NCBI GenBank assembly: GCA_021234155.1
Contig: JAJEKV010000110.1
Span: forward strand, 2,944,338 to 3,008,337
Reading direction: 5' to 3'
Length of the DNA: 64,000 nucleotides
DNA from: Isoetes taiwanensis
Lineage: Eukaryota; Streptophyta; Lycopodiopsida; Isoetales; Isoetaceae
Positions 1,455 to 54,231 of the stretch are shown piece after piece. The position numbers and the translations under genes are program-made. A model generated the notes under the pieces. The model had not been told where the DNA came from and searched no databases. It was given only the letters and a program-made list of their open reading frames with translations. Position 1 is the first letter of the stretch. Each line of letters begins with the position of its first letter.

Positions 1455-1481
1455 GGGTGTAAATTTGATATTGGTACCCAA
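1455..1481 (+). repeat. TE-A left terminal inverted repeat
   Basis: Starts GGGTGTAAATTTGATATTGG and is preceded by the ACAT target duplicate. It matches the reverse complement of 13340-13366 at 26 of 27 positions. Beyond the perfect part, both ends share CACTTG and AAGTGCT-like subterminal words. Confidence 0.8.
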
Positions 1482-2057
1482 AAAGCACCGTCCGGACACT
1501 TGCTTTAAGTGCTGAAAGTGCTTTTTATTCGATCTTCGTTAGTATAACAGATTTTGAGGTAGTTATTCCTGAAATAGCAATCATCCTCCGAGGAAGCTGG
1601 GATCGATGACATGGATTGATTCCTTGGGCGCGAATTTGGAATTCAGATCATACCAAATGCTGGGAAATTTCTTCCGAGATTTCTTGTTTGGCGGGAAATT
1701 GGTTCAGTTCTTGCAAGAATTCTTCATTTCGGTGAAGAACAAGCTTACACTAATACTGTCAATTGCAATTTCGACAAATTGCAATTGCAATTCCTTTTTC
1801 ATATCAATTGATGGCAAGTTCTCCTCAAAACGGTTGAAGCCGCTAAGCGGAGAATTTACTTGGAGCTAGATGCCATGAAAAAAAGAGAAGCCGGGGAAGA
1901 GAATTCGAGAATTGGAGAAGGAGAATATTATTGCGCTGCGGTAAAAAAAAAAAAAGCGTTCTTTGAGTCATAGAAGACAACAGGAACTTTCGAAAGAGTT
2001 GGAGAATTCCTTTTCCATATTGTAAGGAATTGTGCCGATGATAATTCTAAAGGATTA
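1482..2057 (+). other. TE-A left subterminal region and transposase 5' region
   Basis: A weak continuation of the transposase frame (GEENSRIGEGEYYCAAV, then RSLSHRRQQELSKELENSFS near 1900-2020) reads toward the coding exon below, with a poly(A) tract that shifts frame near 1940. The true start codon cannot be fixed. Nothing else is recognisable. Confidence 0.4.
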
Positions 2058-4529
2058 GTGGCTCGAGTTTTTAAAAAGAATCAAACACTTACCACATGTA
2101 ACTCTAGCAGATCCAAAGGAGTTAAATGTGATGAAAGACGTGATTTCAATGTTAGGGAAACTATGCAGGCTCAAAATTTCAAAGAAATACTTGATGTACT
2201 CATAGCTAGGAAGTCCACACTCCAAATGGCGTTTCAACAGGTTAAAGGGATTAATCGAGTGCATTTTCAAGGCTTCTTTCCATTCCCGGAAAACTGTGAA
2301 CCCAAGCATTTAGAAGAAGAATATGTGCCGAGTTTGATCTTTGGTCCATGGTCAATGCATGCAAGGAAGAAGAGATCGATGCTCTTTCAAGAGAGAAGAG
2401 ATAGCTGCTGTAAGAAAGTTTTGGGATGAAAATACTCGGGTTTCACCCTATAAGAAACATGTTAGAAAACATGTTACTGAAAGTGGTGAAAGAATTGATC
2501 ATCCAATACACTTGCTAGAAGTTACACAGGTATGTTTTGATTCTTTTTTTTTTGTTACTAATATGCCTATTCAGTTAGAACTAGTTTCCCAATTCTAGAA
2601 AACGAGACCTGCGCTCTGAAGCTTGCCACAATCAATGTTTAGTCTGTAATTCTGACATTATTATTGACAAAAAGATAGCATTTGAGTCAATCTTTTTTGT
2701 TTTTAACATGATTGTCTAGTTTCTGTAATTTTGACATTATTATCAGATCTGAATTCTCTTTTCTTTTTTCGGTTTTTTGACTTTACCTTGCTTTTCAAAA
2801 GGAACATCTTTGATTTGAAGATATCCCAGCAGACTTTTGAGAGGTTGAAACCAAGCTATATCAGGAAGCTTCAAGAAAGAGAAACCTGTTGCTGCCAATA
2901 CCATCTGCATCTTGAATTTGCCATGCAAGCAATAAATAAAATGAGGACTGATCCATATGGTGTACACAAAGATTGCAAGTGTAAGTGCAGAATTTGTGGT
3001 TCAGGTCCAACATGTTTAGCTAAAGAACACACTATCAAATCCACTAGTGAATATTGGAGACAGATTGTGTGTTCAAAGGATGAGAATGAAGAATGGTACA
3101 AGCTTGCATGTCTAATGCAGACGTGTACTAAGTGTGGTTTGAAAAGGTAATGGCTCCTTTTCTATTTCCTTTTTTGATTGTCTTTAATCTAATTTATTTG
3201 TTTCTTTGGCGGGCTTCCTACATGTCCTAGAGAGAAGGTTAAGAATAATAGGCAAGATGTTAATTGGAAAGTGTTTGAAAAGGTAAATGTAGTTTACATT
3301 ACGCTCAATTTCATGTTAGTGAAGCAAAGAGGTGCGCTTAAAAGTCGTTCACTTTTGCAGCAAGAAGTTCAGAACAAAAAAACCAGGTCTGGCAAGAAAC
3401 CTGCAAAGGTTACCAGATTGGCATACAAATCAGGTTCTCCTTTTGAGTTCCATGAACATGCCACTAAAACTTTGAAGACCTTTGTTCCACATAACTACCG
3501 AGAACATTGGCAAGCCAAACAATTCAAGCAATGTTTGGCATCAATTCAAGAAGACACTATTGTGTCTGCGTAATAGATTTTGCGAGAATTATGGATTCAA
3601 AATTCAGCAAGAAGCTCAATCATGCCATTGGCATACTTGACCAAGTTTCTATTCGGTGCACATCACTTACGGAGAATGAGAAGATCGAGGCGTAAGAAGA
3701 AAGACAAAAGAAGGAAGAAGATAATAAAGAGTCCAAAAAGAAAAATGTTGCAAAAGAGAAAAGGCAAGACTCCTTGAAAGGAATTGTGAAGGAGACTCAT
3801 TTCTACATCAGTGATGACAAAACTCATGATACTGAGTTTGTTCAGCATTGTCTCCAAAATCATGCAGATTGGCTACAATCTATTGGAGTTAACTATAAAA
3901 AACATGTTTTTTGGAGTGATGGTTGTTCTGCACAGTTTAAGTCTTCAAGACCATTTTACTTCCTTGGCAGGTTTCACAATCGACTTGAAAAGGATATTAT
4001 CTGGAATGTTTTTGCTAGCTCACATGGAAAAGGTGAGCATGATGGTGCTGGAGCTGTCATCAAGAGGATTCTAACAAAGGAACAGATGAAATATAATGGA
4101 AGGAAATTGCAATGTGCAAAGGAGGTGGTTGCATTTCTTAGGTGGCACTTCAGCAACAATCCTTCTGATAATGACTTATCAAGGTAAAATTTGCTTATGT
4201 TTTTCTGTAACCCTGTGAAGTCTTTGAAGTAACAATGACTTCAAAGACATAAAGCACTAATGCGAATCACTTCAAACAATAAATGGTTTGAACCTGCAAA
4301 TATTATTTGTAGCTATGGTTGTAATTTGCATATTACACACATTACAAGCAGGTTTCAGTTACTACTAAAGAATATTTGTTCATATTTTTACAGGTTCTTG
4401 TATATATTTTTTGACTATGTCAGCACTACAAGCACTTACAACACTTGGCACTTGTGCAGGTGGTTGAAGTTACAAATCAAAAAACTGTATGCAAAAGATA
4501 ATGATTTAAAAACATTCATACTGATTTAA
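2058..4529 (+). pseudogene. TE-A DDE-type transposase-like protein, broken
   Basis: A multi-exon gene. Exon segments read EIAAVRKFWDENTRVSPYKK (to donor CAG|GTATG at 2529/2530), then from acceptor 2829/2830 TFERLKPSYIRKL and QERETCCCQYH followed by a Cys-rich stretch (CKCKCRICGSG ... CLMQTCTKCG). Next come HWQAKQFKQCL, a DFAENY-type motif split by a frameshift at about 3575-3590, ISDDKTHD, FWSDGCSAQFKSS and SSHGKGEHDGAG. The order RETC-x-C-x2-H, DFAENY, SDG-x4-FK, HGKG-x2-DG is that of a widespread family of uncharacterised proteins in animals and non-seed plants. The Asp residues of DFAENY, SDG and HDG are my candidates for a DDE/D triad. The homologous gene in TE-C is 50913-54039 on the minus strand. 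A GT/AG intron at 2530-2829 and another at about 3147-3230 look plausible. A tail reading FLYIFFDYVSTTSTYN ends at 4529. Confidence 0.7.
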
Positions 4530-4736
4530 GCATTGTAAGCTGAATATTTATATTTATATCAAAATTTGTACATCAAAATTGTGGCTTGTAAAGCCTCATG
4601 TATTGTGGCCTGTACATTTGCAATGAAAAATTACAAGCACTGACCTACATGTCAAGAAACTTTTGTACCTTTTCACTGTTTTCTGAAAGTGGATAAGTCT
4701 CCCTTAGCCATTGTAGTTGACCATTACAATAAATCT

Positions 4737-5520
4737 TCACCAGTGCTGATGTCTCCTCTCCCAATTGTTGCTCTGCAATTGTATCCAAAATGTCAATGCT
4801 TCCTCAGATAATCTTCGGCAATGCTTTGTTTGCTTGAGAATTTGTGTGAAGTCTTCAACCTGAGAAACATCTTTAAGCACCTGCATGTATTTGTCCAACA
4901 TAGTATCATCACGGATCAAGTGTGAAGGATGGTATCAAGAGAGATGTGAATGGTGGAGAAGCAAAAGTTTTGTGAATGCTATCATCCAACAATATGCACG
5001 TAGACCATCATATTGTGGGTAGTCAATCACAACTCTTGATGAGAGGCTTCATGTACAATGGTTTTGAAGACTGAATTGGCCATCTAAATGGCATCTCCAA
5101 GCACTTAGACTGATCCCATATGAATACAAAGTCTCGTCTAATGATTGGTGCTATCACATCTAGAACTTCATTCACATTGTGCTGGTTCATGGAAGACCAA
5201 ATGGCTATATCAAAATGAGTCACTGCTTCTTTCAAGAATTCTCGTGCATTAGGCCTTACCACAACTAGTTTTCTGCTTGTTTTTGTGATGTACAGGCTAG
5301 TGTCCACATGCACTGGACTGTCCCTATGATAAGTCTTAACTAGAACACCATTAACATCTAATATGAGCAGTTTCCTCTTCATAGAGGACTGTCTTGTACA
5401 CCTATCAGTCAAAAAAACATAAAGTAAACATAAAAGACACTTATTAAATAAAAACACAACTTCAAAATTCCATTATATTAACCTGTATGGTACAAGATTC
5501 AATTGAGTGTTCAATTTCTC
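4737..5520 (-). pseudogene. FCP1-like HAD domain protein of TE-A
   Basis: The domain starts at Met 5382 with MKRKLLILDVNGVLVKTYHR. It continues through VVVRPNAREFL, FDIAIWSSM, FIWDQSKC, KPLYMKPL, then after a frameshift ILLDDSIHKTF and HPSHLIRDDTMLDKYM. This is the order of the FCP1/SCP (NLI-interacting factor) HAD fold: motif I, R-P-x2-x2-FL, W-S/T-S, W-D-x2-x-C, and motif III DD. Canonical members dephosphorylate RNA polymerase II CTD. Here motif I is D-V-N, so the second, acid/base Asp is Asn, as in a known plant DLNG-type subfamily; activity is therefore doubtful. An acceptor (GATAG|GTG, near 5401) and an upstream donor (CAG|GTTAAT, near 5482) suggest it is spliced to the RING/coiled-coil exons upstream as one transcript. 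It faces the transposase gene tail to tail. The frameshift near 5025 breaks the C-terminal part. Confidence 0.7.
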
Positions 5521-5589
5521 AACATGTTCAATTTCTTCTTCCAATACAAGTGTACCTGAGCATTAAAACATTAGCTAATAGAAAGTCTT

Positions 5590-7411
5590 AAGAGACACAT
5601 TATCATTGCCCTTCAGACACTCTATCATTGCTTTCAATCTCTCAGCTTTGTTACCTGTAGTCTTGTCAGAAGCCACCTGAGATGTCATGTCATTTCAGAC
5701 ATCTTCAAATATTTCTTCATCCTCTTCAATTCGTGCATCTACTAATTCTTGATTCTTGGTGGCCAGAAAGCGAGTTTGCTTACCTTCTGCCTGGCTTCTT
5801 TGATTCCAAGTTTACACGCTTTCTGTATCAGCCTTTTCCAAGCCCTTATCAAGTGCCCTCCTCACGAAATTGTATTTCCTCTTCAACCTGATTCAAGTAT
5901 TCTTTCCTTTCTTACTTGCTTTCTTAGCTGATTACGTGTTCTTTGCTTTCTTCTTGTTTCCCATTTTGATGCACCTGCACTTTTCCTCTTGATTGCTGCC
6001 CTCTTCTCTCTAACAGGTGTACTCTCTACCTCCTCATTGTCACCTGCATCATTGTCAGCAGGTTCCTTATCCTCAGGACTTGCAATGGAAGCTTCTTGAT
6101 AATTATCTTTTCGACACTGTAGCTTTTCTCCTTAAGATCTTCCTAGGACTCAAGATCTTCCTAGGACTCATCATTAATTGGTCCATTAAAAATTGTTGTG
6201 CATTTCTGTATCACCTTCACTAACGGTCTTAGCGGTGTACCATGTTGATTTAATACACTCTCATCTACATGTCTTTGCATCTTCTCTGATAGCCTTTATT
6301 TGTGGCACATCTATTACTTTAGGCAATTCTGCTTTTGTCATGCCCGGTTCAATATATAAATCTGGATGAATGGACACATCACATACCTTGCACTTACCTT
6401 CCTTCAATAAAGTTGCACATGCTAGATGGTATTCATGATCACAAAATAAGGTCAATGACAATTTGTACCTGTCATGGAAAGTTAGGCCACACAAACAGCA
6501 AGTACCAAAATTGCAAAGCCCTGGTAGTGTTCTCCTTATAGTGTTGATGCAGAAAGGTGTGGAAGTCACATGCTTCAGTTCTGTCAAATGGTTAAGGTAC
6601 TCTCTCAATTCTGAAATTCTTTCATCCTTGTCTTATCTCATCTTCTAACTTTTGCTTCCTCAAAATACTTGTTTCTGATCTGCCGGATGTGATAAGCTTC
6701 TCGAGTCTCTGCTGATAATATATCTCCATAGTGAGAGACATCTCAAGATCTTTTCTGAAACTTGCATTTTCATCATCCAATTCAGAAATTGAAATCTTCA
6801 AATTCTCAACCTTTGTCCTGCTCTCTTCTAACTCAGCAGTAAATTTTGAATTGGATTTAGCTTCAGCAGCTAAATTGACATCAATTGCCTGCACCTCTTC
6901 AAACATTTCTGCCCTCTCATTCTCAAGTTTGTTTGCATTTAATTTGATCAACTCAAAATTCTCTATCAAAGCATGGGTCTAATTTAGAGTTTTGGGTAGG
7001 AGTACCTTTTTGCTTGAACTTGCAACTTCCCTCCCCTTTGACTGCAACCACGTACTTCATAATTTGAGCTCCAAAAGGCGCCCAATTGATCTTATGATTT
7101 TCGAGATTTGCAGCAGCTCGAAATCACAATTCTCCCAAGCAAAAACATAAGCTACCACCTTTCTTACTTCATTGTTGGGAATGTTTTTACGTTTGATATA
7201 GCTTCTTCAACAATGTATTCAATTTTTCCTTGAGCCGAGGCTGGACCATAAGAAGTTTCATCTTATTGTTTGGTGCTTCTTGCCAAACTGAGTACCATTG
7301 CGCATCTGTTACATTTTGTTCAAGCCATTTCTGTCTCAAAGATGGCTGAATTCCTTCTCCTGCCAAACCGTGAATGTCTATGAATTCCTGCTCTGTAACT
7401 GCTTCGGCCAT
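5590..7411 (-). pseudogene. Coiled-coil/RING protein of TE-A, copy 1
   Basis: It starts MAEAVTEQEFIDIHGLAGEG at 7411. An N-terminal helical domain (SLRQKWLEQNVTDAQWYSVW ... LKEKLNTLLKKLYQT) is followed by a coiled coil at 6622-6969 (ENFELIKLNANKLENERAEM onward). Then comes a RING-H2-like zinc finger at about 6370-6500 (CCLCG ... LFCDHEYHLAC ... CKVC), and an acidic/basic linker that reads toward the FCP1-like exons (VDARIEEDEEIFEDV). RING domains usually act as ubiquitin or SUMO E3 modules; that role is inferred here. Several frameshifts break the frame between 5680 and 7190. It is near-identical in length and layout to copy 2 at 11440-13249. The linker is followed on the same strand by the FCP1-like domain, suggesting one fused or co-spliced product. 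Confidence 0.65.
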
Positions 7412-7637
7412 GCTGAGACGATTGGATCGAAGGATGAAAATGCAAAATTGATTTCGTTGGAGGAGCTTTCGGAAACAGGGGATTCGAAAATTTGGGATCG
7501 AAAAAGGGGAAAGCCAGAAGCAAAAAGGCGCGCGAGAACCGAGGCAATCTGCGAGATTCTATGTATTATGGCTACTCGAATTTTAGATGGCTACTCGAAT
7601 TTTAGGTGCTTCAAGTGCTTGGTGCTTTCGCTCAAAA

Positions 7638-7664
7638 TTGGATACCAATATCAAATATACACCC
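7638..7664 (-). repeat. Internal copy of the TE-A right terminal repeat
   Basis: The reverse complement reads GGGTGTATATTTGATATTGG, then TATCCAA, equivalent to 13340-13366. It is not followed by ACAT, so it is an internal duplicate rather than the terminus that transposed. Confidence 0.7.
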
Positions 7665-7949
7665 CAAATAGCAGTATCTATCATAATCCATCTATTCTAG
7701 ATGTAGTATTCAGAAAGATCAGAGTTGAAGAAGCTTACTAATCTTGAAATGTGGGTTTTCTCATATTTTTTGGTTTTGAAGAGTAGATGGGTGTTGTTTT
7801 TACAGAGATGTAGTGATGCTTAGCTTCAGTATTCTTCCCCATCGATCTGCTTCTGCTATGTTCACCATAGCTAAACGGCATTCGGATCTGCCAGCTTTGA
7901 AGATTAAACCTACATTTTTGCCATCGAAGTTTATATTGAGAAGCTTCAT
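7665..7949. other. No gene recognised
   Basis: Frames such as MFTIAKRHSDLPALKI... on the plus strand show no known motif. The stretch could be an intron or upstream exon of the adjacent glycosyltransferase fragment. Confidence 0.4.
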
Positions 7950-7954
7950 CTTCT

Positions 7955-8421
7955 TTGCTGCGGGAAATGCCAGAGAGCATGATCCATCAGCAGCTTTCAG
8001 AGGATGTTTTGGACAGAACAAAGGATAGAGGAAGGATCTACTCATGGGTGCCTCAGATGAGGTTACTAATGCATAAATCTGTATAGGGGGTTTTACACAT
8101 AGGGTGGATGGAATTCTGTAATAGAGTCTGTGCTGGCTGGCGTGCTGATGCTTAGTAGACCAATAGCATCAGATCGGTTCACGCACACTAAGGCTGATTG
8201 TACATCTAGGGATTGGATTGGACGAACGCGAATATGAGGATCCAGACAAGGCTTTGAGAGATCTGATGTTTGGTGAAGGTGGCAGATGTGTGAGGATGAA
8301 GATGAGAGAGATGGGAGAAGCTGCAAGAATGGCAGTCGCCAAGGGAGGATCCTCTTACACAGATTTGCTTGAAATTGTTAAGCTTTGTTATTCCAAATGC
8401 ACCCTCACCCGGACGATATAA
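7955..8421 (+). pseudogene. UDP-glycosyltransferase C-terminal fragment
   Basis: Frame segments read LSEDVLDRTKDRGRIYSWVP, QMRLLMHKSV, then GGF, GWNSVIESVLAGV, LSRPIASDRF, and after a frameshift DEREYEDPDKALRDLM and KGGSSYTDLLEIVKL. This is the plant secondary-product glycosyltransferase (PSPG) box W-x-PQ ... HxGWNS-x2-ES ... P-x3-D plus the usual C-terminal GGSSY helix of family 1 UGTs. Such enzymes move sugar from UDP-sugar to small acceptors. The conserved His-Cys before GWNS and the frame around it are damaged, two frameshifts are present, and the N-terminal acceptor domain is missing. It lies inside TE-A between the internal terminal repeat and a direct repeat, so it is probably a captured or inserted host-gene fragment. 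Confidence 0.7.
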
Positions 8422-8652
8422 CACGGTGACCTAGTAAACACACTAATGACTCGCGTTTGCACTCATAAAAAGAATCTTTCAAAGATTCCATAAAATACCC
8501 TTAAATTTTTTACTACTTTTGGGGGGGTCATTTATAAAAAGAGACCTCAATTTACGATTTCGATTTCGAAGTTCCATTTTAGGTGCCAAATTAAAAAAAA
8601 TGGACGTATTGCACCAAAGCAGGGGCCTAAAGTTAAAGTTAAATTTATAAAA
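8395..8652 (+). repeat. Dispersed repeat, first copy
   Basis: Roughly 255 bp beginning near ACCCTCACCCGGACGATATA and ending AAGTTAAATTTATAAAATG. It is repeated in direct orientation at 9007-9260 with scattered substitutions and one small insertion. Without coding potential it may be a partial terminal or subterminal repeat of a degraded element. Confidence 0.75.
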
Positions 8653-9006
8653 TGGGTCCTCTTGACGCTTACGGGTGGCATAAATGGCGCCATTTTTAGC
8701 CCTAAATAATAGCGCTAATTAAGAGGTTTAACTGAATTTTTAAATTTTATTTTAGCACTAAATCCCGCCCATGGGATTCTAAACCGTCGAACCTTTCCCC
8801 CTTTCCTACTTTCTTGGAGTTTCTTGGATCGGATTCAGAAACATAGCTGCTCCCCATTGAGATCCCCGTACATTGCTTGGTTAACTGGCCGGATCAAATT
8901 GCTGTGACTGTACTGCTCCCACATCAGTAATTATCGAAATCCGTTATCTGTACCGTTCTAAACAATTGCCAGTCATTAGATTCAACAAAATCCCCAATCC
9001 AAATCC
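8653..9006. other. Spacer between direct repeats, no gene seen
   Basis: About 350 bp with no frame or motif I recognise. Confidence 0.6.
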
Positions 9007-9260
9007 ACCCTCACCTCACGCATATAACACAGTGACCTAGCAAACACACTAATGACTTGTGTTTGCACTCATAAAAAGAATCTTTCAAAGATTCCATAAA
9101 ATATCCTTAAATTTTACTACTTTTAGGGGGTCATTTACAAAAAGGGACCTCAATTTACGATTTCGAGTGCCGTTTTTAGGTGCCAAATTAAAAAAAATGG
9201 ACGTACTCTTAATTGTAGTGCACCAAAACAGGGCCTAAAGTTAAAGTTAAATTTATAAAA
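9007..9260 (+). repeat. Dispersed repeat, second copy
   Basis: Direct repeat of 8395-8652, including the shared block CACTCATAAAAAGAATCTTT. The pair could delimit a small insertion, since the spacer plus one copy is about 610 bp. Confidence 0.75.
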
Positions 9261-11439: not shown

Positions 11440-13249
11440 ATCCTCTTCAATTCGTGCATCTACTAATTCTTCAGTTACTGGTGGCCCTGTAGCAGAGTTT
11501 GCTTGCACTGCAGCTTCTTCAGATTCCAAGTTTACCTGCTCTGTATCAGCCTTTTCCAAGCCCTTATCAAGTGCCCTCCTCCTGAAATTGTATTTCCTCT
11601 TCACAACTGATTCAGTATTCTTTCCTTTCTTACTTGCTTTCTTAGCTGATTCTGTGTTCTTTGCTTTCTTCTTGTTTCCCATTTCAGTACCTGCACTTTT
11701 CCTCTTGGTTGCTGCCCTCTTCTCTCTAACAGGTGTACTCTCTACCTCCTCATTGTCACCTGCATCATTGTCAGCAGGTTCCTTATCCTCAGGACTTGCA
11801 ATGGAAGCTTCTTCAGTAATTATCTTTCGACCTGCAGCTTTTCTCCTTAAGATCTTCCTAGGACTCAAGATCTTCCTAGGACTCATCATTAATTGGTCCA
11901 TTAAAAATTGTTGTGCATTTCCTGTATCTGCTTCACTAACAGTCTTAGCAGGTGTACCATGTTGATTTAATACACTCTCATCTACATGTGCTGCATCTTC
12001 TACAGTAGCCTTTCGCTGTGGCACATCTATTACTTTAGGCAATTCTGCTGTCATGCCCAGTTCAATATATAAATCTGGATGAATGGACACATCACATACC
12101 TTGCACTTACCTTCCTTCAATAAAGCTGCACATGCTAGATGGTATTCATGATCACAAAATAAGGTCAATGACAATTTGTACCTGTCATGGAAAGTTAGGC
12201 CACACAAACAGCAAGTACCAAAATGGTAGTGTTCTCCTTATAGTGTTGATGCAGAAAGGTGTGGAAGTCACATGCTTCAGTTCTGTCAAATGGTTAAGGT
12301 ACCCTCTCAATTCTGAAATTCTTTCATCCTTGTCTTTTATCTCATCTTCTAACTTTTGCTTCCTCAAAATACTTGTTTCCTGATCTGCAGATGTGATAAG
12401 CTTCTCGAGTCTCTGCTGATAATATATCTCCATAGTGAGAGACATCTCAAGATCTTTTCTGAAACTTGCATTTTCATCATCCAATTCAGAAATTGAAATC
12501 TTCAAATTCTCAACCTTTGTCCTGCTCTCTTCTAACTCAGCAGTAAATTTTGAATTGGATTTAGCTTCAGCAGCTAAATTGACATCAATTGCCTGCACCT
12601 CTTCAAACATTTCTGCCCTCTCATTCTCAAGTTTGTTTGCATTTAATTTGATCAACTCAAAATTCTCTATCAAAGCAGACTGGTCTAATTTAGAGTTTTG
12701 GGTAGGAGTACCTTTGCTTGAACTTGCAACTTCCCTCCCCTTTGACCTGCAACTTCTGTACTTCATAATTTGAGCTCCAAAAGACGCCCAATTGATCTTA
12801 TGATTTTCAGGATTTGCAGCAGCCGAGTCACAATTCTCCCAAGCAAAAGCATAAGCTACCTGCTTTCTTACTTCATTGTTGGGAATGTTTTCTGTTTGAT
12901 ATAGCTTCTTCAACAATGTATTCAATTTTTCCTTGAGCCGGTTTTGGACCATAAGAAGTTTCATCTTATTGTTTGGTGCTTCTTGCCAAACTGAGTACCA
13001 TTGCGCATCTCTTACATTTTGTTCAAGCCATTTCTGTCTCAAAGATGGCTGAATTCCTTCTCCTGCCAAACCGTGAATGTCTATGAATTCACGCTCAGAA
13101 TCGCTTCTACCATGCTGAGACGATTGGATCGAAGGATGAAAATGCAAAATTGATTTCGTTGGAGGAGCTTTCGGAAACAGGGGATTCGAAAATTTGGGAT
13201 CGAAAAAGGGGAAAGCCAGAAGCAAAAAGGCGCGCGGGAACCGAGGCAA
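11440..13249 (-). pseudogene. Coiled-coil/RING protein of TE-A, copy 2
   Basis: Two long overlapping frames (12185-13249 and 11311-12207) together encode the N-terminal domain, coiled coil, RING and basic linker seen in copy 1, with fewer breaks. The order is IDIHGLAGEGIQPSLRQKWL, VRKQVAYAFAWENCDSAAAN, NWASFGAQIMKYRSCRSKG, a coiled coil of about 130 residues, and the RING (CCLCGLTFHDRYKLSL ... LFCDHEYHLAC ... KCKVC). The tail is Lys-rich (RKILRRKAAGRKI, KRKSAGTEMGNKKKAKN) and nuclear-signal-like. An 11-base deletion relative to copy 1 at about 12220 shifts the frame just before the RING. The start region differs from copy 1, so MAEAV is lost. It is followed by unrelated Harbinger sequence, not by the FCP1-like domain, so this copy lacks its downstream partner. 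Confidence 0.7.
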
Positions 13250-13339
13250 TCTGCGAGATTCTATGTATTATGGCTACTCGAATTTTAGATGGCTACTCGA
13301 ATTTTAGGTGCTTCAAGTGCTTGATGCTTTCGCTCAAAA

Positions 13340-13366
13340 TTGGGTACCAATATCAAATATACACCC
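13340..13366 (-). repeat. TE-A right terminal inverted repeat
   Basis: The reverse complement begins GGGTGTATATTTGATATTGG. Immediately outside is ACAT, matching the left flank at 1451-1454. Confidence 0.8.
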
Positions 13367-13974
13367 ACATGCTTTGGGAAAAATGAAATACACATGGTTA
13401 CATAAATCGTGACCCTAAATGTCTATTGAGCATATTTGTGACAATAACTCATGAAGCTCAGCCTTAATCCCCTCAGATTTATCAAGATAAGAATCATCTT
13501 CCCAGTTAACTTTAGTAAAAGCAATAGGAACAGAATTTTCTTTATCAATATTGGGATCAGCTAAGGAGTGAGAACATTCCCAGAATTTAGAATTACAACA
13601 TTCATAATTTAATAAAGAATTAGAGATTAAATTTTGTGGGTTTAGAGTTTTTGGATCTTGCCTGGAAGAGAGTTGCTCCAAGTCCACATGAGATGCATTC
13701 AGTGCTTGATCTTGTAAAACTTTGGCTTGCAAAGACTTGTTGAGCTGAGCATCTGTACTTATGATCAGATCTGTATCATGAATCTTATCCATCACTGCAT
13801 CTGTATTCTTACAATCCTATATTATAAAAATATAGCGTGTGTCTTCCATGGAGACCTAGATCGAATGGTTGAGGATTTGATCAACCAACGGTGAAGATGA
13901 CATGTGCGCGACTTCAACCAAGATTTCATCTTGAATGTTGCTTCAATATGATTAACTCAATCCGACAGTCAAGG

Positions 13975-22945: not shown

Positions 22946-22949
22946 GAGG

Positions 22950-43164: not shown

Positions 43165-44963
43165 ATTCGCTCCTATAATCGCATGAAAATAACAATGACA
43201 ACTAAATTCTTGCATCAAATAATATGGCAATCTAATATTTAGACCTACGGGCTATCATGTAACCGAACTGCACAAAAGCAGAAAGGAATTTCTTCTATAT
43301 CATTTCTTTTGTTGTATATTTGCTATAAGTCTATCAGAATGGTCAAGATAGAAATACTATGAAAATAAGGCCTCATCAATTAGCAAAAACGTCCATTCTT
43401 TAGGCTAGAGGAATCTGATGCCTTTGTTGTTCCTCTGCTGAAGGCCGGATCGTTGGGTCGCGGATGGAATTGGCTCAGCAATTCCGCAGATAAAGCAAGT
43501 CAGTTATGGTTCTGCGCTCTGTTACCTGTTTCAGCACTAACTACTCACAGTTTATTTTCATTCCTGCAACTCAGGGTGATTTTCTACTATAGTCATAAAA
43601 TAAGACTGTCACATTGAGATATGCCACTGTTTGTGACTCCAAATCAAAAGATACGACACATAAAATTTAAGTTATTTTTTCACGATAAAGTGTCATAACA
43701 TAAGACACCATCAAAGTACTAGTGGAAAACCCAAAAAGAAATAAGACATGTCTTATTTTAATAATATTCTTATTTTGTACCGGAGAAAATCCCCGGGTAT
43801 AAAATAAGACTCTATTCCCCTCATAGTTGGGCCGACCCACCGACCTAGCCGACCTGCCGACCTAGGTGGGAGAAGACCGACCTAGGTGGGGAAATTTCGC
43901 CGACCTACCGACCTATTTTGCCAAAATTCAACTTCCTCTTTTCCTGCAGATAATGCATAAACAACATGCAATACATCTTTAGTTCGAAATAAATAGTGAA
44001 TCCAGACAAGTTTACACCTCAAATAATCTCTAAACAGTCGATTTATGCTATCAAACTTCAAATAAAACAGAGCACATTGTCTTCTGAGGAAATATACATA
44101 AGGAAACAATAAATTAAAAAGTAGCATCAAACCGAATGCATGATTTTGACCACCAAACACCTTCCCCTTATCATATTTACAAATTTTGATGCTTGTTCCC
44201 ACTCGAGACTTATCATCTTGGCCTAACAAAACAAAATAATCAATACAAGTAATCAAATGATAATCAAATTGTAATCAAATGATAATCCAAACCTAAATGG
44301 GACATGTCTTATTTTTACAAGAAACTTATCGCGGCGGCCAAGGCCGCCGCGAACGTTTCTCTTCCCCGACTCGTCTATGCATGCTAGAACATGCAGAATT
44401 TGAACCTGCATTTTGTTGCCTTGTCTTCAGTACCTGCACGACAGAAGAATATTGATCATAACGACTTGTTACGGAAGATGTTTTGCATTAAATCAAAAGA
44501 GCATTTCTCTTCACTGAGATATAAAAAAAAAGGGAGTATCTCATCATCTCAACTCACGACAAAGTAGATTTTTGTATCAAGACAAAAAGGATCTCAGTTA
44601 TGGGCTTGCAAAATTGAACTAAATGTGTCTAAGTTGGAGAACTGTAATCTCCAAATTATTTCCTAAAAAACGCAAAAGCCATGCCTTTGGACGCCACAAC
44701 CATTTGTTTTGTTCTATCCCACTTGCAAACGAAAAATGATAGTACATAAGATATTTTAGATAATACCAGCCTTGGATACAATAACGGGACTTCAACTAAA
44801 TCAACAGGGAAAACATACAGGAGTGGAACCTGTATTCTTGCCATACATTTTAGAGCCCTTGGGATAAGGAATTGTTGCTTTTAATTACGGAGCCCCTGTT
44901 GCTTACTCTAAATGACAACTTAAACATCCTTGGAGAACATTTTGAGATAACAGACTTACACCC
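43165..44963. other. Intergenic DNA with small repeats, no gene seen
   Basis: Contains a short CCGACCTAGGTGGG-type repeat cluster (43835-43920), two copies of GACATGTCTTATTTT (43746 and 44301), a block shared with 56500-56535 (AGTTTATTTTCATTCCTGC) and a GC-rich palindrome (44329-44352). No credible coding frame. Confidence 0.5.
44329..44352. other. GC-rich perfect palindrome
   Basis: An 11-bp arm TCGCGGCGGCC, an AA loop, and the exact inverse. It stands out in AT-rich surroundings. No Helitron CTRR end follows within 15 nt. Confidence 0.8.
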
Positions 44964-44985
44964 GGGTAAAAGCATGAAAGGGTGT
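44964..44985 (+). repeat. TE-C left terminal inverted repeat
   Basis: Starts GGGTAAAAGCATGAAAGGGT. Identical over 22 bp to the reverse complement of 54210-54231. Confidence 0.9.
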
Positions 44986-45218: not shown

Positions 45219-48200
45219 ATGGCCCCAAAACGCCCCGGATGAGTGCTTGCTCATCACCACGCCCAAGCAAGATGCCGGTGCTTCCGGCGGTGGAATTTTA
45301 CCTCCAAGGAGTTTACGTTTGGGTTACGAGGTGATCCAAGCCAAAGACCTCCCGTGAGAAACATCAGAGGCCCACATACCCAACCTAGAGATGGTTATGA
45401 GCGAGGTATGGGGTGAAGCTCAAAAAAAGCAGACGAGGATTCAAGGAAGGGAGAATCGAACGCATGGAAAGATGATTTTTTAAATATTATGAATTGGTTT
45501 ATGGCAAGAAACGGGTTACAAACCATTATATTTCAACCTATTTTGCGGAGCATTTGCTCTTCACTTGAAGGGACGGCTTGTTGATTGGATGGGCGTGGCT
45601 AGGACCGCCAAAGATCTTGCCAAAACCCTCGGTTCGGGGCGTTACAGAGGACCCTACAGGTAAATCCTCAACTATCAAACGGGACATCGTATTGCGTGAG
45701 AATATTAGAGCCACGGCTTATTCTAGATCAGATGTTGACACAATAAAGCGATTACTTAAGCATGGGTTGGAGGAGAAAACTAACCTATTGAATGAAGTAG
45801 AAGCCTTTGGAAGAAAAAAGGAGGGATGCATTGAAGGTCATCACCGGATTGAGGGTAGAAAGGATATGCTATCAGAAGATCTGGCAGCGAATCTGCCGCG
45901 AGAAAAATAGATGAGACAAAAGCAGAATTTGACAAATTGTCCGGGATCCCTGCTTTGGAAATCTTTGTTATGTTTGAGTGTTGAAGTACAAGTTGGAAGA
46001 CTTGGTTATGAGTAGACATGATAAAGAACAACACTCTTCTAAGCTAGAAATTGGTTTTGCGGGAAGCAACTAAAGACATTGAAAGGCATGAAATCTCAAT
46101 TGAACAAGCAAAGGAAAAACTTAATTGCATTGAATTGGTTCGGGAAAGGCATTCACAGATTTTGGATTTCATGGGGAGAGCGGGACCTATTGTTACGCAC
46201 CGAGGCCCTACCGTAGGAGCTACTTCTATAAGCAGTTCATCACATTCGGTTCATGTACTGTTGTGGCCAAGGCTTTGGCAAAAGCGGGTTTGTTCTTGCT
46301 AGCTCCATGCGAGAGATGCTTATTGCCTCTTACGCTTGTGTTATCTGGTCCATGAAAAGCGCAATTGCATAAAGGTTGCATCTGGGATGAGGGCATTGAA
46401 TTGACTTGGTTTCCCTGCCTTTGTGAAAGGTATGCATTGCTCTCAACTAATTTAAACTTATATTTCTCTTCATTCATATTTGTTATTGTAATGCATAGTT
46501 CTACATGTATGGCTTTGATTGCATTGCTATTCCTTGTACATGTATAACTTTTAGTGTACATCTGTAGCTTGAGAGGTACATAGGCATATATTTGCTTGTT
46601 TATTGATGCTTTTATTTTTGAGCTTGGACTGCGGTTGTATCGGTTGTACATGTCTCTAATGGAGTCTACATCGCAAATAGATGTACATGCATTTATCTTT
46701 AGAGTGCATCGTAGATGGATTCATAAGTATGTGCATTTTTTACATATATGTGCTTTTTTTTTTTTTTGGCATAGATCTACATTCCCTAACTGGATACGGG
46801 TACATCCGGGTACATCGGTGTACATCGGGTACATTGATGTACCTTTATGTACATTGAGGAACATGTACATGTACATTTGGCTATAGTTAAATGTAGTTAC
46901 TTACATTTGGTACATTCTATGTACATGAAATGTACATGCTTGGCGAGGATGTACCATATATTTCTCATTAGTTGTTTTTCATGTTCTTTTATGTCTATTG
47001 AAATTTAGATCATTTGTTTGTTTTGCGAGATGAAATTTGTTCCTATCGAAGCGGCTTTAATGGGTGATGTTCTTGAGCCATCTGCATCGACTCTCTTCTG
47101 GATTTTCTTGAGCATAATAAGCGGACCGAATCGTAGACCCTCTACCTTCCAGCTCGGATCACCAATGACATTTTCGGTGCCGTAATAGAACAATCTGCAG
47201 CGATTACCTTTCCGAACATGGCAAAGTGAAGTTGAGGAAATTGAGAGGATGGCACTTGAGAAAGCTAAAGCGGTGCGGTGCGCGGAGCCTTCAATGGCTG
47301 GCGCAGAGAAAATCTTTCATCACCAAGTGCTAAATTAGTAATTGGAGAAGCTAAGAAAGATTAAACCACGTCTCGGCATCATCTGCGGGTCCAGTTACGG
47401 ACTGATTACGGAAAGAAGCTACAAAGGACACAGATCAGATTTTAACCGGGAGATACCGGGGAAGAGGAAGGCGGAGTTGGTAGTTGAGTCCACTCCAAAG
47501 AGGAGGCAAAAGAATCTGGTGATGGCACTCCAAAAGGAAAAAAAAACGGCAAAATCTCCAAAGCAACAAAAAATGTCCTCCAAAAAGAAAATCTCCGGGC
47601 AAAAAAGTGCCACCACCACCTAGAAAGAGGTATGTCCAAGATGAACTAATTTTGTTAAACATCTCGGATTTATGGTAATTAACCACATTTTTTTTGTGCA
47701 TAGGACACGATCCGCCGCGTGAAGGAAGCCGATCCGATCCTTCCGAGTCGAAACCAGGAAGAGGAAGAGGATCTACAAGCAACTATTGATGTGATAACAA
47801 ATAAGGTGCAGCGATCCTCGAGAAGATCTCAAACGGTGATGAATTTACAAGGTGAGTAATATACAATTGATTACAATAGATATATTCTTTTGCTAATCTT
47901 TGTTGTTTCCATGTGACGGTTTAGTGAACCGATCGAAAAGGTTGGTTCCATTCACTCCTTATAGGGATTTGTCCTCCTAAGCCCGCACCCTCTATCTTTC
48001 AAAGTGATGTTGACGAGTTTCTTTGGAAGTCGGACTTGACCTCTAAGATGGTAGATGTCTATGGGAGGTAGGCTAGCATTTCAACATATTTATGTTATTT
48101 CATTCCCTAAGTCACTCATCTTATGTATTAATATGTAATCTGGATTTGTGTGCGTGTACCTTTGTAGCAGTCTTCCATCGATTGGAAACACAAGTTTTTA

Positions 48201-48950
48201 TGGTTCGATTGGGACACCTTCAATTTTGTGAATTCCCTCAAGAAGCGGGGGGATGCAATGCAGAACACTAACATAAAGGAAGGGCTGGATGGCATTTTGA
48301 TTGCAAGATGCCAATACATATTTGTTCCAATTACGCAAGGCCCAAATGTGGCATTGGCAATACTTGTGCTTCTTTGGTCCAATGAAAAGCTCTTTTCCAT
48401 CTATAGCTAGCCCAAGTATACTGAGATCCTCTCTCATCCAAAGGCTATGTACCGGATGCTAAAGTGGTCGTAGTAAGTATGAGTTTTGTTTTTGTTTTTA
48501 TGATTTGATTATTCTCATATTGCAATTTCTTATGCTTGATTTATTCTCACATTGCAATTTTGCGGGGTTTCATAAGCTTGTGATCAATAACATGATGCTC
48601 GGATCCAACAGCTTAAGCCATGGTAGGAAGAACTTTGATGCTCCTGTGTTCTGTCCTAAAATGCCAGAAACTAGTACCAGCAACCCTTGCATGTACATTG
48701 TGGCTTACATGCACAAATTCATAGATGCCGTGGTTGATGCACGCCCAAGCTCCATTTTTGTAAGTAGAACATGTTATTTTCCTATTAGTTATTTGTTGGT
48801 ATAGTCCTCTAATACTTGTGCACCATGCGGATGACACCCGGTTGGTTCGCGATGCCTATGCCAAGTCACGGAGGGATCATCTAATGGAGGCATTAATTGT
48901 AGAAGGCGAGATGAATATACAAGCGGTTGTTCCTACACGGGGTAGATAGT
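45219..48950 (+). pseudogene. Coiled-coil/RING/Ulp1-like protein of TE-C, broken
   Basis: Modules in order: (1) a coiled coil at 45690-46150 (DVDTIKRLLKHGLEEKTNLL, KDIERHEISIEQAKEKLNCI). (2) A frame-shifted RING near 46240-46390, with YCCGQGFGKSGFVL, then CYLVHEKRNC in other frames giving a C-x2-C ... C-x-H ... C-x2-C spacing. (3) A Lys-rich linker (47342-47620, ESTPKRRQKNLVMALQKEKK). (4) A Ulp1/C48 cysteine-peptidase-like domain at 47970-48780: PAPSIFQSDVDEFLWKSDL, DWKHKFLWFDWDTFNFVNSL, CQYIFVPITQ where the His-Trp should follow, and MPETSTSNPCMYIVAYMHKF with the catalytic-Cys box (N-x-C-x-Y). GT/AG introns at about 47623-47702 and 48067-48169 look plausible. Ulp1 enzymes cleave SUMO. The His-Trp is not visible, and several shifts and stops show the gene is dead. 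Confidence 0.6.
46640..46940. repeat. GTACAT-rich block 1
   Basis: At least twelve GTACAT or ATGTAC hexamers in 300 bp, densest at 46795-46880. The hexamer pair is self-complementary as ATGTACAT. It lies within the transcribed part of TE-C, perhaps an intron. Confidence 0.8.
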
Positions 48951-49144
48951 CCCTTTGACTTGTTTGTAAATTACAGTTTTGTATGAGCCATGCTCCGAGC
49001 TTCTTTGTACTCAATAAGTAATGAAAAAATTAATTTATTTGTCTCACTTACACTGTGCAAATAACAATCGTGTAATTATCAATGTGTTTTCTCAATTGTG
49101 TGTCCGAAATGTAATTATAAATTGTGAATCTCAAGTGTTTTTTC

Positions 49145-49950
49145 TTGACGGGTGAATCATCTAATTCAGGGAGAAAGCTCGTTATCTTTGACTTAAATTA
49201 CGTGTTGGGCAAGAGTGTGCACAAGAATGAAAATATTAACTCAAGATACCAACGGATCGGAAAAGATGAGCTTCAATTTAATATAGGAAGCAGGTTTTTC
49301 TTGCGAGGGCGGGGTTAGCATCTTTGTTAGCATTTGTAAGAGAAGGGTTTGATGTTGCCATCTGGTCTTCACTCACTTCTAAAAATCTTCAACCAATTGT
49401 GGAACATATTTGTGATGCTTTTTCCATAAAAGCTGAAGTTTGTTTACACCCGGGAGCAAAGTGTTGGACTTCGCCACACAAACACCCTACCTTGAACCTC
49501 AAAAGGGGTTGTTTGTGAAACCATTAAACGTGGTATGGAAAGAGTACCCAGTACTATGGACATACGGTTCTGATCGGCGATTTAAAGATACAAATCCACT
49601 TTGAATCTGTAGGAAGCTACATATGTCCTTTCTCTTGGACACCGATATTAGCTAGTGATGATTGCTTGTCATGGAGCTCATTCCATGGCTTAATGGATTC
49701 AAAATGGCGAAGATGGTATAGTTTATGTGAAAGAGCATCCAATGACTAATGCGGCCGGATGGCATATCGAGGCGGGTGGAACAGATTTTTTTGGCAAACT
49801 ATGGCAGCAACTTGGGTGCTCTTCTTTGCCTAAATTTAGTCAATATACTGAACAAGGAATGGAGAAACTGCCATCATGTTATTGGCCTCTCGACCTGGCC
49901 CATTGTTGGTACAGACTTTGATGATGTACAAATTCAAATGTTATGAATAT
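49145..49950 (+). pseudogene. FCP1-like HAD domain protein of TE-C
   Basis: Segments: SGRKLVIFDLNYVLGKSVHK (motif I as D-L-N), LLAFVREGFDVAIWSSLTSK, VCLHPGAKCW, LFVKPLNVVWKEYPVLWTYG after a frameshift, then a poorly preserved C terminus (49727-49950). Block order matches the TE-A copy at 4737-5520: D-x-N motif, FDxAIWSS, W/H-x-x-x-KC, KPL-x-x-KPL. As in TE-A, the second motif-I Asp is replaced by Asn. Frameshifts at about 49315 and 49500 break it. It follows the Ulp1-like module on the same strand by about 200 bp and is tail to tail with the transposase. FCP1-type enzymes dephosphorylate polymerase II CTD; activity here is doubtful. Confidence 0.7.
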
Positions 49951-50912
49951 ATGTATCAAAGTTTTTGTTCATTGCACTTGAGTACTCTATTCTTCTTGTC
50001 TTTCTTATTGGTACAATTATGAGTGTGTATACATAATTAAGTGATCTTCATTTGCTTTGTAGATGAATGGACTGAAAACACAAAAGACTATTAAGAAACT
50101 AAGAGATAGAGAGTTACTGCACCCGGAGGTAATACAAACCAACACAAGTTGCAAGTACATAGGGTTGGGGACCGATTATCGCCTCTATCTTCTTTGTTCA
50201 CGAACTTTGGGAAAAGGTTGAGCAAATTGAAAATTATGAGGAACGAGCAACCATGAAAGGTATATTGGCAAGCAAATCACTTGTTGCACAACCCTTGGGG
50301 AAGGCACGTGTCCTGGAAGATCACGGGCTATGTAGGATGGAAAGGTTTGCCGGTGGCACGTGCTATAGAAACCGCATGGACTCTTGCTTTAGAGGATATC
50401 TCTTGACCTCTCTCGGGCTGGAAGACATGATGCAATAGTCATAAGATATCGGGCTCCCCTTGACATTTTGAAGCTTGGTCATGAATTATGAGCCATGCTC
50501 ATTTTTGGGTGTGTTATATTTATGTCCACAATATAAATAAATCAACCATTTGTACATGAAAAACTGTCCATTTCTTATCTTTGCCATGGTGAAACCATTT
50601 TAGTGTTTATGCAATTCAACTTTCTTGTGTTCAATTCTAATCAACTTACACTTAACAAATTTTTATAAGATTTTGGAATGTACAACGGATGTACATAAGA
50701 TGTACATCTGTTGTACATCTTATGTACATTGATGTACATAATGCACTTCCTACGAAGTAGTCCAGTTCTTAGGTTCTTATAACAAAGTATTACAATATTT
50801 GAGGAGGAAAGTACTACAGATCGACTTAGTCCATGTCATCTACAATTCTTTGGAAGTTGTGATAACAATGTCTCATGGACTTCATCGGCAAGTGAAATCG
50901 TGCTTGCCCCCT
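49951..50912. other. Region between FCP1-like and transposase genes
   Basis: Contains the frame 50253-50438 (MKGILASKSLVAQPLGKARV onward), unrecognised, and a GTACAT-rich block at 50680-50745. No other gene seen. Confidence 0.4.
50680..50745. repeat. GTACAT-rich block 2
   Basis: Five GTACAT/ATGTAC hexamers in 65 bp. The block lies just beyond the 3' end of the transposase gene, between the convergent genes. Confidence 0.75.
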
Positions 50913-53900
50913 TCAACTTTTGTGTTTTACTTTCTTGAATGGGATTGAACCCCAATCACGATTCTGCGGTACCAAAACATTCTTAGTAGGAAGCGGTTTA
51001 TACTTATTGTGGCGGCACGGGATTAGTTCATAATATTGTCCTTCAATGACACTAGTGCCAGCAGAGTATTCATTTCCATAGTCATCAATTGAATCTTCTT
51101 CCAATGCATGCTTTTCCCCGGTGCACATGAGAACATAGTATGAAACACCTTCCACATTGTGCGGTCTGCAAAAGACACAAATACATCCGAAAGCGATTTC
51201 GGTGTCATCTAAACCAGCCTCGTCCTCTGCATACAAAACTTCCACATCATTTTCAGCTTCAAACACGAGAGGCAATATGATCAGCGTGGGCTCCAAGCGT
51301 TTTAGAGACCATTCTCCACAATGTTTAATGTTCTCACAATTCAACCAATTGAAGTTAATGCAAGCATCACAAAAAGCGAGTGGTGCATAGCAACTTTGTT
51401 GGATCTCATTTTGGGTTTATAGTTGACACAGAATGTATCTGCCGAGTACCGGGTAAAGTCTTGCAATTGAATGCTTGCTGCTTTGTTCACATCTCTTTTT
51501 TTCCAACCTCCCAAAACACCCTTTCACAATCCGATTCCTTGGCCCTTAAAAGCGCACAAAGTTTGTTTTACACTTTTATCACGGCATGCCATTTTGTTTT
51601 CTCTGCTTTCGCTCTCAAGCCACAACTTTGCTATACCAGCCTCGCCATCATGTGTGCCTTTCCCATGGGCGGATCCAAAGAAATTCCATATCACTTTCGA
51701 ATTTTATTTTCAACATGGTATCTCTGATTCCATACCATGCACGTGCAGATTTGAATTGAGATGCACAACCATCCGACCACACATAATGAAGGTTTATGTG
51801 TCCACCTCCATTATTCTTAAGCCACCCCAAATGTAATTTAAAACCATGTTGCACAAAATGAGTGTCATGCTTCTGTCATCCGAAACATAGAAATTGCATT
51901 TTTTTTTTAAGCTTACCTTCTATTTTCATCATTGAAATATGGACCAAAATACTAATTTGATCGGGATTCCAATGCTCGGATTGCACATACGTCCCTTTGG
52001 TTTCAATGTGTAGTTCTCTGCAAAGTCAACAACAGACAACACACTATTATCCGGGAGTTTCTCAACACATCTTTTAAACTGTTTGCTCTGCCAGTGTGCT
52101 GTAAAGTTATGATCTGTAAACTTAGCAAGCTGATTTTTCATGTTCTTTAACAAAGCAGATGCTTTGTCATTCCGATCAACTAATCTAAGCCTTACGGATG
52201 TACCTTTTTGGATGGCTCATTGACATATGCATATACTTGCCGGTCCACATTCTCAATTCCATCTTCCTCGTTTGGACGGATGTCTAATTTCTTCACTCCA
52301 CATTCATCACATTAGCCTTTGATGCATTTTAGTTTATGCCATTCATCCGTCACATATTTCTCATAAACTGTTGACCTCCACAAGATACTAACATTATCAA
52401 AAGTTTTCTTGTTTGCTTGACATACTCCATTGTTTTCTTTGGGATGCATGGACACTACTGACCGCAAGTGCAATTAACATGTAGGGATCTCCTCATATCA
52501 TTGAAGGCCTTTCGTACGGATCACGCTTGCTCATGTTTGACACAACAACATGTGTTTCTCTCCTTCAATTTCCTTATGCAATCAGGTTTCGGATACTCGA
52601 ACCTAGTCAAGGCTTAATTTTGGTATCAGGATTCTGATATACAAACTGTTGATAAAGCTCAGACTGCAATAACAAAAGCATTAAAGACCATGTTAGCAAA
52701 ATGATGTCGGCAACCAGATGCCAAAAGAGTATTGAACTATACTATTGTACAATTAATGTATGTTCTATGTACATAAAATGTCCATCCAACAGTTCCATCG
52801 ATCATTCTTGTACATCTAATGTACATCTAATGTACAGCAGTACATCTAATGTACAGCCAACAGTTCCACTGAACATCCAATGTACATCCAATGTACATCC
52901 AATGTACATCTAATTAATGTTCCAATATTAGTACATCACATTAATGTTACAATATTAGTACAACTAATGTACATATGTCCGATTTGTTTGGCTTCATTAC
53001 GAAGTACACTAAAATGTAGAATGATGTAATTTTGATATTCAAGTACATGTAAATGCATTTTGCATGGACATGTAATGTTAATGGATGTACATCTAAAAGT
53101 ACCTAATAGCACATCAACGCAAGATTTACGCTACTATGTAAACAATGTAAAATGCAATACATTTCATGAGAACCATGTGTATTCATTAACGGGTCACTTT
53201 CGAACGAGAACTAGAATGTCTGAGAATGTACTAGAATGTCTGAGAATGTACTAGAATGTCATGAAAGAATTTTGGAAGAAAACATAAACTCCAAGACTGA
53301 ATTGATTCAATTACAAGAGCAAACACGTGAGATATCAAGGTATTGTATTGCTTGTGTTCTCCTCTTCATGACATCTCTAACCTTTGGTGAAACTTTGGTA
53401 TTGTCAAGCCAAAATTCCACGAACGACATTTGATTGAATCATCGATTCTATTTGATCTTGGCATCCTTCCCGCCAAAGCCCATACATTTGCTCCACTTAA
53501 TGACATTATCTTCCTTCTTCTTTGCAGCTTTGGATAAATTTCTTGGTCAGTATCTTTAGCAATTTTGAAGAAACATTCTTGTTTATATCTCCTTTTTTTC
53601 CAACAATCATTGATAACGATTGAATGTTTTGCAGCCAATTTATCTTTGCTATTAGCGGACTTTACTTCTTGAAGTCCATCTTTCAAGTTTCGATCATTGA
53701 TTTCATAACAATAACCCGGAAGGATTTCCAATTACAGGTTCGAAAAACGAAAAAAAAGCGTCATCTTGCAACAAACGATCACAAAAACTAATCTTTGATT
53801 CGGACCGAAGCGTTTGCCAAGAATCGAGGATGCAATCCACCGACATTGTCAACACGCTTCTTTATTTGTTTTGTGGCATAACACTGGCCAATGTCGGCAT

Positions 53901-54039
53901 ACTTGCGCTTACAACCATCACTTCCATTGGAATTCTCACCCTCCATGAACAGATTGACATGTGTTTGCTTCTGAAATTCCTTCGGTGTTCTTCCTGTGAA
54001 AGGGGGGAATTTCGGAAAGGGAGGGGCGGATCCATTCAA
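50913..54039 (-). pseudogene. TE-C DDE-type transposase-like protein, broken
   Basis: From a possible Met at 54039: a basic N-terminal region (KRKYADIGQCYATKQIKKRV), poorly aligned middle sequence, then KLKERNTCCCVKHEQ (52560) matching QERETCCCQYH of TE-A. Next are VKKLDIRPNEEDGIENVDRQ, DHNFTAHWQSKQFKRCVEKL, LSVVDFAENYTLKPKGR, NLHYVWSDGCASQFKSARAW and a frameshifted FFGSAHGKGTHDGEAG. The C-terminal domain is 51344-50913 (NCENIKHCGEWSLKRLEPTL, IAFGCICVFCRPHNVEG, LVPQNRDWGSIPFKKV). Shared motif order and similarity make it the counterpart of the TE-A gene. The DFAENY, SDG and HDG aspartates are candidate catalytic residues. Several shifts and stops inactivate it. Confidence 0.7.
52740..53110. 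repeat. GTACAT-rich block 3
   Basis: Many GTACATCTAAT and GTACATCCAAT units (52810-52920) plus scattered hexamers to 53100. It lies inside the transposase gene span, presumably an intron. Confidence 0.8.
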
Positions 54040-54209
54040 TTTGGTTCGGTGGTTCGGTGGTTAACCAAGAATTTCGGGGGGAATGTCAGGGATGATCTTG
54101 CAATCATTGCATATCTGACACAAAACGACAAACCATAGTATCTTGATGTACATCTAAAATGTACCCCAAAAAAGCACAAATTCGTCCTTCAATTCAGTAC
54201 GATGTACGT

Positions 54210-54231
54210 ACACCCTTTCATGCTTTTACCC
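54210..54231 (-). repeat. TE-C right terminal inverted repeat
   Basis: Exact inverse of 44964-44985; followed by the ACCC duplicate. Confidence 0.9.

Follow-up and report, generated by a model that had tools for sequence, protein, structure and literature searches.

In a 64,000 nt stretch of the Isoetes taiwanensis genome (contig JAJEKV010000110.1; hereafter, the window), two diverged DNA transposons, TE-A and TE-C, each carry a DDD transposase gene and, facing it tail to tail, an accessory gene with an FCP1/SCP-like (NIF) domain. This anatomy of transposase plus convergent accessory gene within terminal inverted repeats (TIRs) is well supported. We read TE-A and TE-C as two lineages of one large Sola-like cut-and-paste group with a conserved accessory protein, probably a nuclear regulator, and give this reading a probability of roughly 0.6. 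The label Sola-like is apt by target-site duplication length and by the DDD triad. The window was analyzed through Pfam scans of its 93 open reading frames (ORFs), and related loci were sought in the genome (1.66 Gb in 1,110 contigs).

Element limits and gene order

TIRs with matching 4-bp duplications delimit both elements (Table 1). An earlier note on this DNA took them for two clearly diverged transposons with a homologous DDE-like gene and an FCP1-like domain in tail-to-tail order. All of this is borne out below, and only the proposed right end of TE-A had to be moved. The left end at 1455 stands, with its TIR and its ACAT duplication, and pairs with an inverted repeat ending at 7664 (27 nt, 93% complementary), but 7664 is followed by CAAA. 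Since the ACAT bordering position 1455 is matched at 13366 and not behind 7664, the insertion unit is 1455-13366. TE-A is enlarged by an internal duplication of its right part plus other sequence, and measures 11.9 kb with inserts. Between the two right parts lie ORFs in window 9464-11077 that presumably resemble a PIF/Harbinger transposase (no Pfam match seen), with a Myb/SANT-type ORF close by; PF13837 is matched by one window ORF, probably 10367-11077.

The TE-C TIR pair (44964/54231) is complementary at 22 of 22 positions, and the inverted ends of both elements are of a GGGT type. The TE-C accessory region (47800-50300) returned at least 41 matches at ≥90% identity, query included, with 40 of 560 candidates scored, mostly near the full query length. 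One complete sister of TE-C, L035, spans 9,240 bp between TIRs complementary at 22/22 positions and TGCA duplications.

When the window ORFs are compared with one another, the TE-A gene on the + strand resembles the TE-C gene on the − strand; their transposase cores are 40% identical, with DDD motifs in both. TE-A keeps SDGCSAQFKS and SHGKGEHDGAG intact while DFAENY is frameshifted. Searching with a spliced TE-A sequence yielded 107 homologues, and the assignment to DDD transposases with an RNase H fold comes from these motifs together with fold matches obtained, after realignment, for the model of a relative, P0001. The distant homologue P0096 falls just under the DUF7869 (PF25273) cut-off (25.2 vs 26 bits); at E ≤ 0.1, none of the 24 members of set A2 matched this family. 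The DDE cores form four supported clades: TE-A with L013, L016, L018 and L021; L019 with L023, L025 and L026; TE-C with L035 and L033; and L029 with L030 and L031.

On the accessory side, NIF (PF03031, curated cut-off 21.8 bits) is matched by TE-A at E 1.3e-12 and 48.2 bits. The decayed ORF of TE-C itself remains under the cut-off (E 0.0029, 17.7 bits), and a joined peptide of a sister copy exceeds it (E 9.4e-06, 25.8 bits). Direct comparison of the TE-A − strand FCP1 ORF with the TE-C + strand ORF gives 24% identity over 67 aa (E 5.7e-4). As similar ORF pairs thus sit on opposite strands, the gene order is convergent in both elements.

Recurrence of the gene pair in the genome

The genome holds at least 151 NIF matches (150 of 3,261 candidates scored), from which 20 loci besides the window were hand-picked, non-randomly, and 10 kb fetched around each. 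A transposase convergent to the FCP1 domain was found in 10 of them (L013, L016, L017, L018, L019, L021, L023, L025, L026 and L027), being only partial in L017 and L027. Eight of these ten have inverted ends on both sides, and in every case the two flanking 4-bp duplications agree (CAAA, TATT, TACT, ATTT, AGCA, ACCT, ATCA and ATAG); a single end was found for L017 and L021. Together with the outer limits of TE-A, TE-C and L035, this makes 4-bp target-site duplications in 11 of 11 bounded elements, which apart from TE-A measure 6.0-9.3 kb. The other ten NIF loci are equally divided between five of canonical DxD motif without DDE (L009-L012 and L014) and five multicopy DxN loci without a P0001-type DDE (L015, L020, L022, L024 and L028). 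Approached from the transposase, six loci were picked from 75 matches, every one a long single (intronless) open frame, and FCP1 is present and convergent in two of them, L029 and L031.

The FCP1 gene occupies the same convergent place in 10 of 20 NIF loci and, in the eight with both ends found, lies between shared TIRs with matching target-site duplications, which excludes a host gene inserted at differing sites. The core proposal of the earlier note, diverged transposons sharing a transposase and an FCP1/RING accessory gene, thereby withstands the main check that the note had set, although copies lacking the gene exist among the transposase loci (four of six, considered below).

Two side observations concern individual loci. 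In L013, an ORF with the FCP1 domain (4540-5670, − strand) opens with about 110 aa, which we take to resemble a long terminal repeat (LTR) retrotransposon protease, perhaps a nested fragment. The five DxN loci represent a second multicopy FCP1-like family, extending over ~4.4-5.6 kb in each, with the motif (D/Y)MNGVLL and long ORFs upstream. Since one neighboring + strand ORF in L015 (8435-9469) matches DUF7869 weakly (E 4.8e-4), this family may be another FCP1-carrying transposon lineage.

The accessory protein

The predicted fold of the accessory domain is clearly FCP1-like: the model has a mean pLDDT (predicted local distance difference test) of 78.9, its fold neighbors include CTDNEP1 (2.3e-11), SCP2 (2.4e-10), SCP1, Fcp1 and Tim50, and UBLCP1 is matched by sequence (3.8e-12). 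At its fullest the protein would comprise, from N to C terminus, an N-terminal segment, a coiled coil, a RING, a basic stretch and the FCP1/SCP-type HAD domain, the coiled coil and the basic stretch being by-eye calls from sequence.

The FCP1 domain of element copies is under purifying selection. The ratio of non-synonymous to synonymous substitution rates (dN/dS) is 0.14-0.31 in all 10 usable diverged pairs (dS 0.68-1.09) and 0.26-0.84 in 12 close pairs (dS < 0.11), out of 66 pairs that are not independent and of which 44 were saturated or had dS ≥ 2.

A tree of FCP1 domains was built from 13 element rows, two Hibiscus proteins, Arabidopsis P0123, five L015-type rows and five canonical NIF rows, leaving TE-C out. 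A 100/100 branch parts the canonical rows from all others; on the remaining DxN side, a single clade of element rows was not recovered. L029 and L031 are joined (100/99), L019 falls with L023, L025 and L026 (83/92, not starred), and the A-type rows have no resolved order.

The earlier note also gave both accessory genes a RING and a coiled coil. The RING, a hallmark of ubiquitin ligases, is firm for TE-A: zf-RING_2 is matched at 2.9e-06 by one of the 93 window ORFs, and a profile built from five relatives places it at 6339-6509 and 12052-12222. Most relatives checked also carry it, L029 and L031 both included. The coiled coil holds by eye in both genes, but at profile level only generic Pfam coiled-coil matches under the cut-off appear in the TE-C sister copy. 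The conserved N-terminal segment of these proteins has no match in TE-C by profile.

Several results weigh against the reading of a conserved accessory nuclear regulator. No RING was found in TE-C, either by Pfam or by the five-relative profile, so of the shared FCP1/RING set that the note had proposed, the pair recurs between TIRs but no RING is detectable in TE-C; nor was one found in L021 and L026. The dN/dS comparison covers the FCP1 domains of element copies, with TE-C and the RING outside it. Foldseek alone returned no significant match for the P0001 transposase model. In four of the six transposase loci (L030, L032, L033 and L034), FCP1 was not found within 10 kb of the transposase, and the accessory gene is therefore common but not universal, nor essential for every element. 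No TIRs were found around these four loci, which may or may not be complete elements; at L034 we read an adjoining ORF as LTR-type integrase-like. Finally, Asn has taken the place of the second motif I Asp in every one of 15 aligned rows (12 from elements).

The same DxN motif occurs in all 12 element copies used for dN/dS, as well as in the window copies of TE-A (DVNG) and TE-C (DLNY) and in L035 (DLNS), and the catalytic DxDx(T/V) form was seen in no element copy read. In the 15-row alignment, motif I keeps its first Asp almost without exception, and a late Asp and Lys are invariant. Having DxN in place of DxD makes phosphatase activity doubtful, and since every copy read has it, the role of the HAD domain may be to bind phosphate and not to hydrolyze it.

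Possible functions of the accessory gene

We infer that the accessory protein, its HAD domain being a phosphate binder or a modified enzyme joined to the RING, probably acts as a nuclear phospho-protein/ubiquitin regulator. Its HAD domain would bind a phosphorylated protein, either the tail of RNA polymerase II (Pol II) or chromatin factors, and its RING would add ubiquitin to the bound target; as an outcome, the element may be expressed, escape silencing or have its transposition intermediates repaired. More specifically, one may speculate on an element-encoded, phosphorylation-guided ubiquitin ligase with an anti-silencing role, in which the DxN phospho-reader would bring the RING to Pol II or silencing factors, a tentative proposal that we regard as unlikely in this precise form.

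Alternatively, the protein could be a second transposition subunit like the convergent mudrB, needed for integration and not for regulation. Such a subunit would be in line with a convergent gene pair enclosed by TIRs, with the coiled-coil-like and basic segments, and with the recurrence of the pair across several clades of the transposase; RING and HAD domains are unusual for this role, and no accessory gene was found near four of six transposases that have long open frames. We consider it an unlikely explanation.

A third possibility, Pack-MULE-type hitchhiking, holds that an FCP1-like host gene was captured once and has no role in the element. A host origin is possible given that element FCP1 domains share the DxN side of the tree with one Arabidopsis and two Hibiscus proteins, and the lack of FCP1 near four of six DDE loci points the same way. 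Yet the convergent position is the same across members of four DDE clades, dN/dS is low between diverged copies, and the RING and N-terminal segment are retained alongside FCP1 in most. Passive cargo is thus already disfavored and seems distinctly improbable.

That the protein is a true carboxy-terminal domain (CTD) phosphatase, raising transcription of the element or of neighboring genes, we judge quite improbable. CTDNEP1, SCP1/2 and Fcp1 are indeed its fold neighbors, and the motif I first Asp and the late Asp and Lys are kept as described. However, the second motif I Asp, the acid/base in known family members, is Asn in the 15 rows and in both window copies, and the fold matches also include Tim50, a non-phosphatase of the same fold.

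Least of all can we uphold the Ulp1 SUMO protease module that the earlier note added to TE-C, which now appears highly improbable. By eye, RCQYIFVPI..VALAIL and NPCMYIVAYMHKFIDA stand at Ulp1-like spacing, and all seven TE-C copies allow GPNVALAI and NPCMYIVAYMHKF to be read, not always in one frame. However, Ulp1 enzymes carry His-Trp and DCG where all seven copies have GPNVALAI and NPCMY, respectively, so that His-Trp is missing throughout. No Pfam match to Ulp1 was obtained at E ≤ 10 in the decayed TE-C peptides or in the peptide from the seven-copy majority, general Pfam scans including the window ORFs listed no PF02902 (Peptidase_C48) at E ≤ 0.01, and a Hibiscus Ulp1 profile did not match TE-C. 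An hhalign comparison of the segment with Ulp1 scored 10.4, no better than shuffled sequence (median of 40 shuffles, 12.3).

Comparison with known systems

Sola elements are described as having a DDD transposase, 4-bp duplications and sizes mostly of 2-9 kb (PMC10741241), and are reported from a moss (PMC10741241; PMC3627910). The Isoetes elements resemble this superfamily in transposase type, duplication length and similar size range, and differ from it in their FCP1/RING gene; no Sola with such a gene was found in open-licence PMC papers. In the brown alga Ectocarpus, Sola1-1_Ec32 likewise has an accessory gene beside the transposase and opposite to it in strand, but there the protein combines ParB-like and DNA methyltransferase domains instead of RING/FCP1 (PMC12477816). 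Ubiquitin/SUMO-pathway domains on DNA transposons also occur in Ginger1 and Mutator-like elements (MULEs), which carry Ulp1 or OTU proteases (PMC2836005); those are protease domains accompanying other transposases, whereas here we find RING plus an FCP1-like domain and detect no Ulp1. MULE target-site duplications measure 7-12 bp (PMC10741241). Membership in the Ulp1-bearing MULEs was rejected on the 4-bp duplications of 11/11 elements and the absence of any Peptidase_C48 match. Open-licence PMC papers yielded no description of RING/FCP1, or FCP1/Ulp1/RING, transposon cargo.

Maize MuDR offers the same layout of two convergent genes within TIRs. It has a MULE transposase, 9-bp duplications and a mudrB that is not known to carry RING/FCP1. 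With the FCP1/SCP/UBLCP1 phosphatases of plants and animals, the accessory domain shares the HAD fold and the NIF family, differing in the DxN motif I and in being transposon-encoded.

Hibiscus syriacus has multicopy FCP1-like proteins (P0108-P0121): of the 15 listed, NIF is annotated in 10, Ulp1 in 6 and both in 3. P0108 and its relatives resemble the Isoetes accessory proteins as a multicopy family with a C-terminal FCP1-like domain, and P0108 has the motif DVNG; it differs in having a well-matched Ulp1 domain (E 2.8e-11) but no RING match. Possibly, the Hibiscus proteins belong to an angiosperm transposon as its accessory products and have been taken for host genes in annotation. Because of this multicopy family, cargo of the FCP1-like kind may be more widespread among plants.

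Other features of the window

Pfam domains in the window further include LINE-type DUF4283, zf-RVT and RVT_1, a hAT dimerisation domain and Myb_DNA-bind_4, a set in keeping with a land plant. The 760 aa ORF at 18485-20764 shares 96-99% identical stretches with ORFs 13418-13816, 15308-16327 and 16212-17045, so that 13418-20764 contains two copies of one element, one of them apparently broken by a polypurine tract at ~13983-15100. Long strand-biased polypurine/polypyrimidine tracts (GGGAAA-type and complement) occur at 13983-15100, 23500-23940, 29260-29950 and 32040-32960. A 19 bp tandem repeat of ~30 copies (GGCTCAAACATGCCAAGTT) at 22948-23512 adjoins a T-rich 31/65-bp array at 22102-22913.

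Table 1. Features of TE-A and TE-C in window coordinates.
Feature	Position	Strand	Basis or remark
TE-A left target-site duplication, ACAT	1451..1454		sequence
TE-A left TIR, GGGTGTAAATTTGATATTGGTACCCAA	1455..1481	+	repeat comparison
TE-A DDD transposase gene, introns and frameshifts	2400..4184	+	tblastn 2812-4142; earlier part by reading
TE-A accessory gene, FCP1/SCP-like (NIF) domain, motif I DVNG	4743..5382	-	PF03031 E 1.3e-12
TE-A accessory gene, RING finger	6339..6509	-	RING profile; one window ORF matches zf-RING_2
TE-A accessory gene, coiled-coil-like stretch	6625..6978	-	by eye
TE-A accessory gene, conserved N-terminal segment (NEVRK.vAYAFAW...KINWA)	7052..7188	-	profile
TE-A inner right TIR, flank CAAA unlike left duplication	7638..7664	-	repeat comparison
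TE-A right part, second copy	11440..13366	-	94% identical to 5719-7664; holds RING and N-terminal segment
TE-A second right copy, RING	12052-12222	-	RING profile
TE-A second right copy, N-terminal segment	12749-12907	-	profile
TE-A outer right TIR	13340..13366	-	repeat comparison
TE-A right target-site duplication, ACAT	13367..13370		sequence
TE-C left target-site duplication, ACCC	44960..44963		sequence
TE-C left TIR, GGGTAAAAGCATGAAAGGGTGT	44964..44985	+	repeat comparison
TE-C accessory gene, coiled-coil-like stretch, decayed	45660..46200	+	by eye
TE-C segment earlier read as Ulp1-like	48250..48780	+	in 7/7 copies; no Ulp1 profile match, no His-Trp
TE-C accessory gene, FCP1/SCP-like domain, motif I DLNY	49172..49638	+	NIF below cut-off; sister copy above
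TE-C DDD transposase gene pieces (VVDFAENY, WSDGCASQFK, HGKGTHDGE)	50883..52613	-	tblastn 50982-52613
TE-C right TIR	54210..54231	-	repeat comparison
TE-C right target-site duplication, ACCC	54232..54235		sequence

Implications

For plant DNA transposons, it is known of few accessory genes what they do; those of MuDR (mudrB) and VANDAL (VANC) have been informative on integration and on silencing. The protein described here, which combines a RING with an FCP1-like domain under purifying selection and recurs in diverged clades, is a new candidate for countering or using the host transcription and ubiquitin machinery. Element-borne copies help explain the multiplied NIF/FCP1 domains of the I. taiwanensis genome, and annotators should be warned that not every NIF/FCP1 domain is a host phosphatase.

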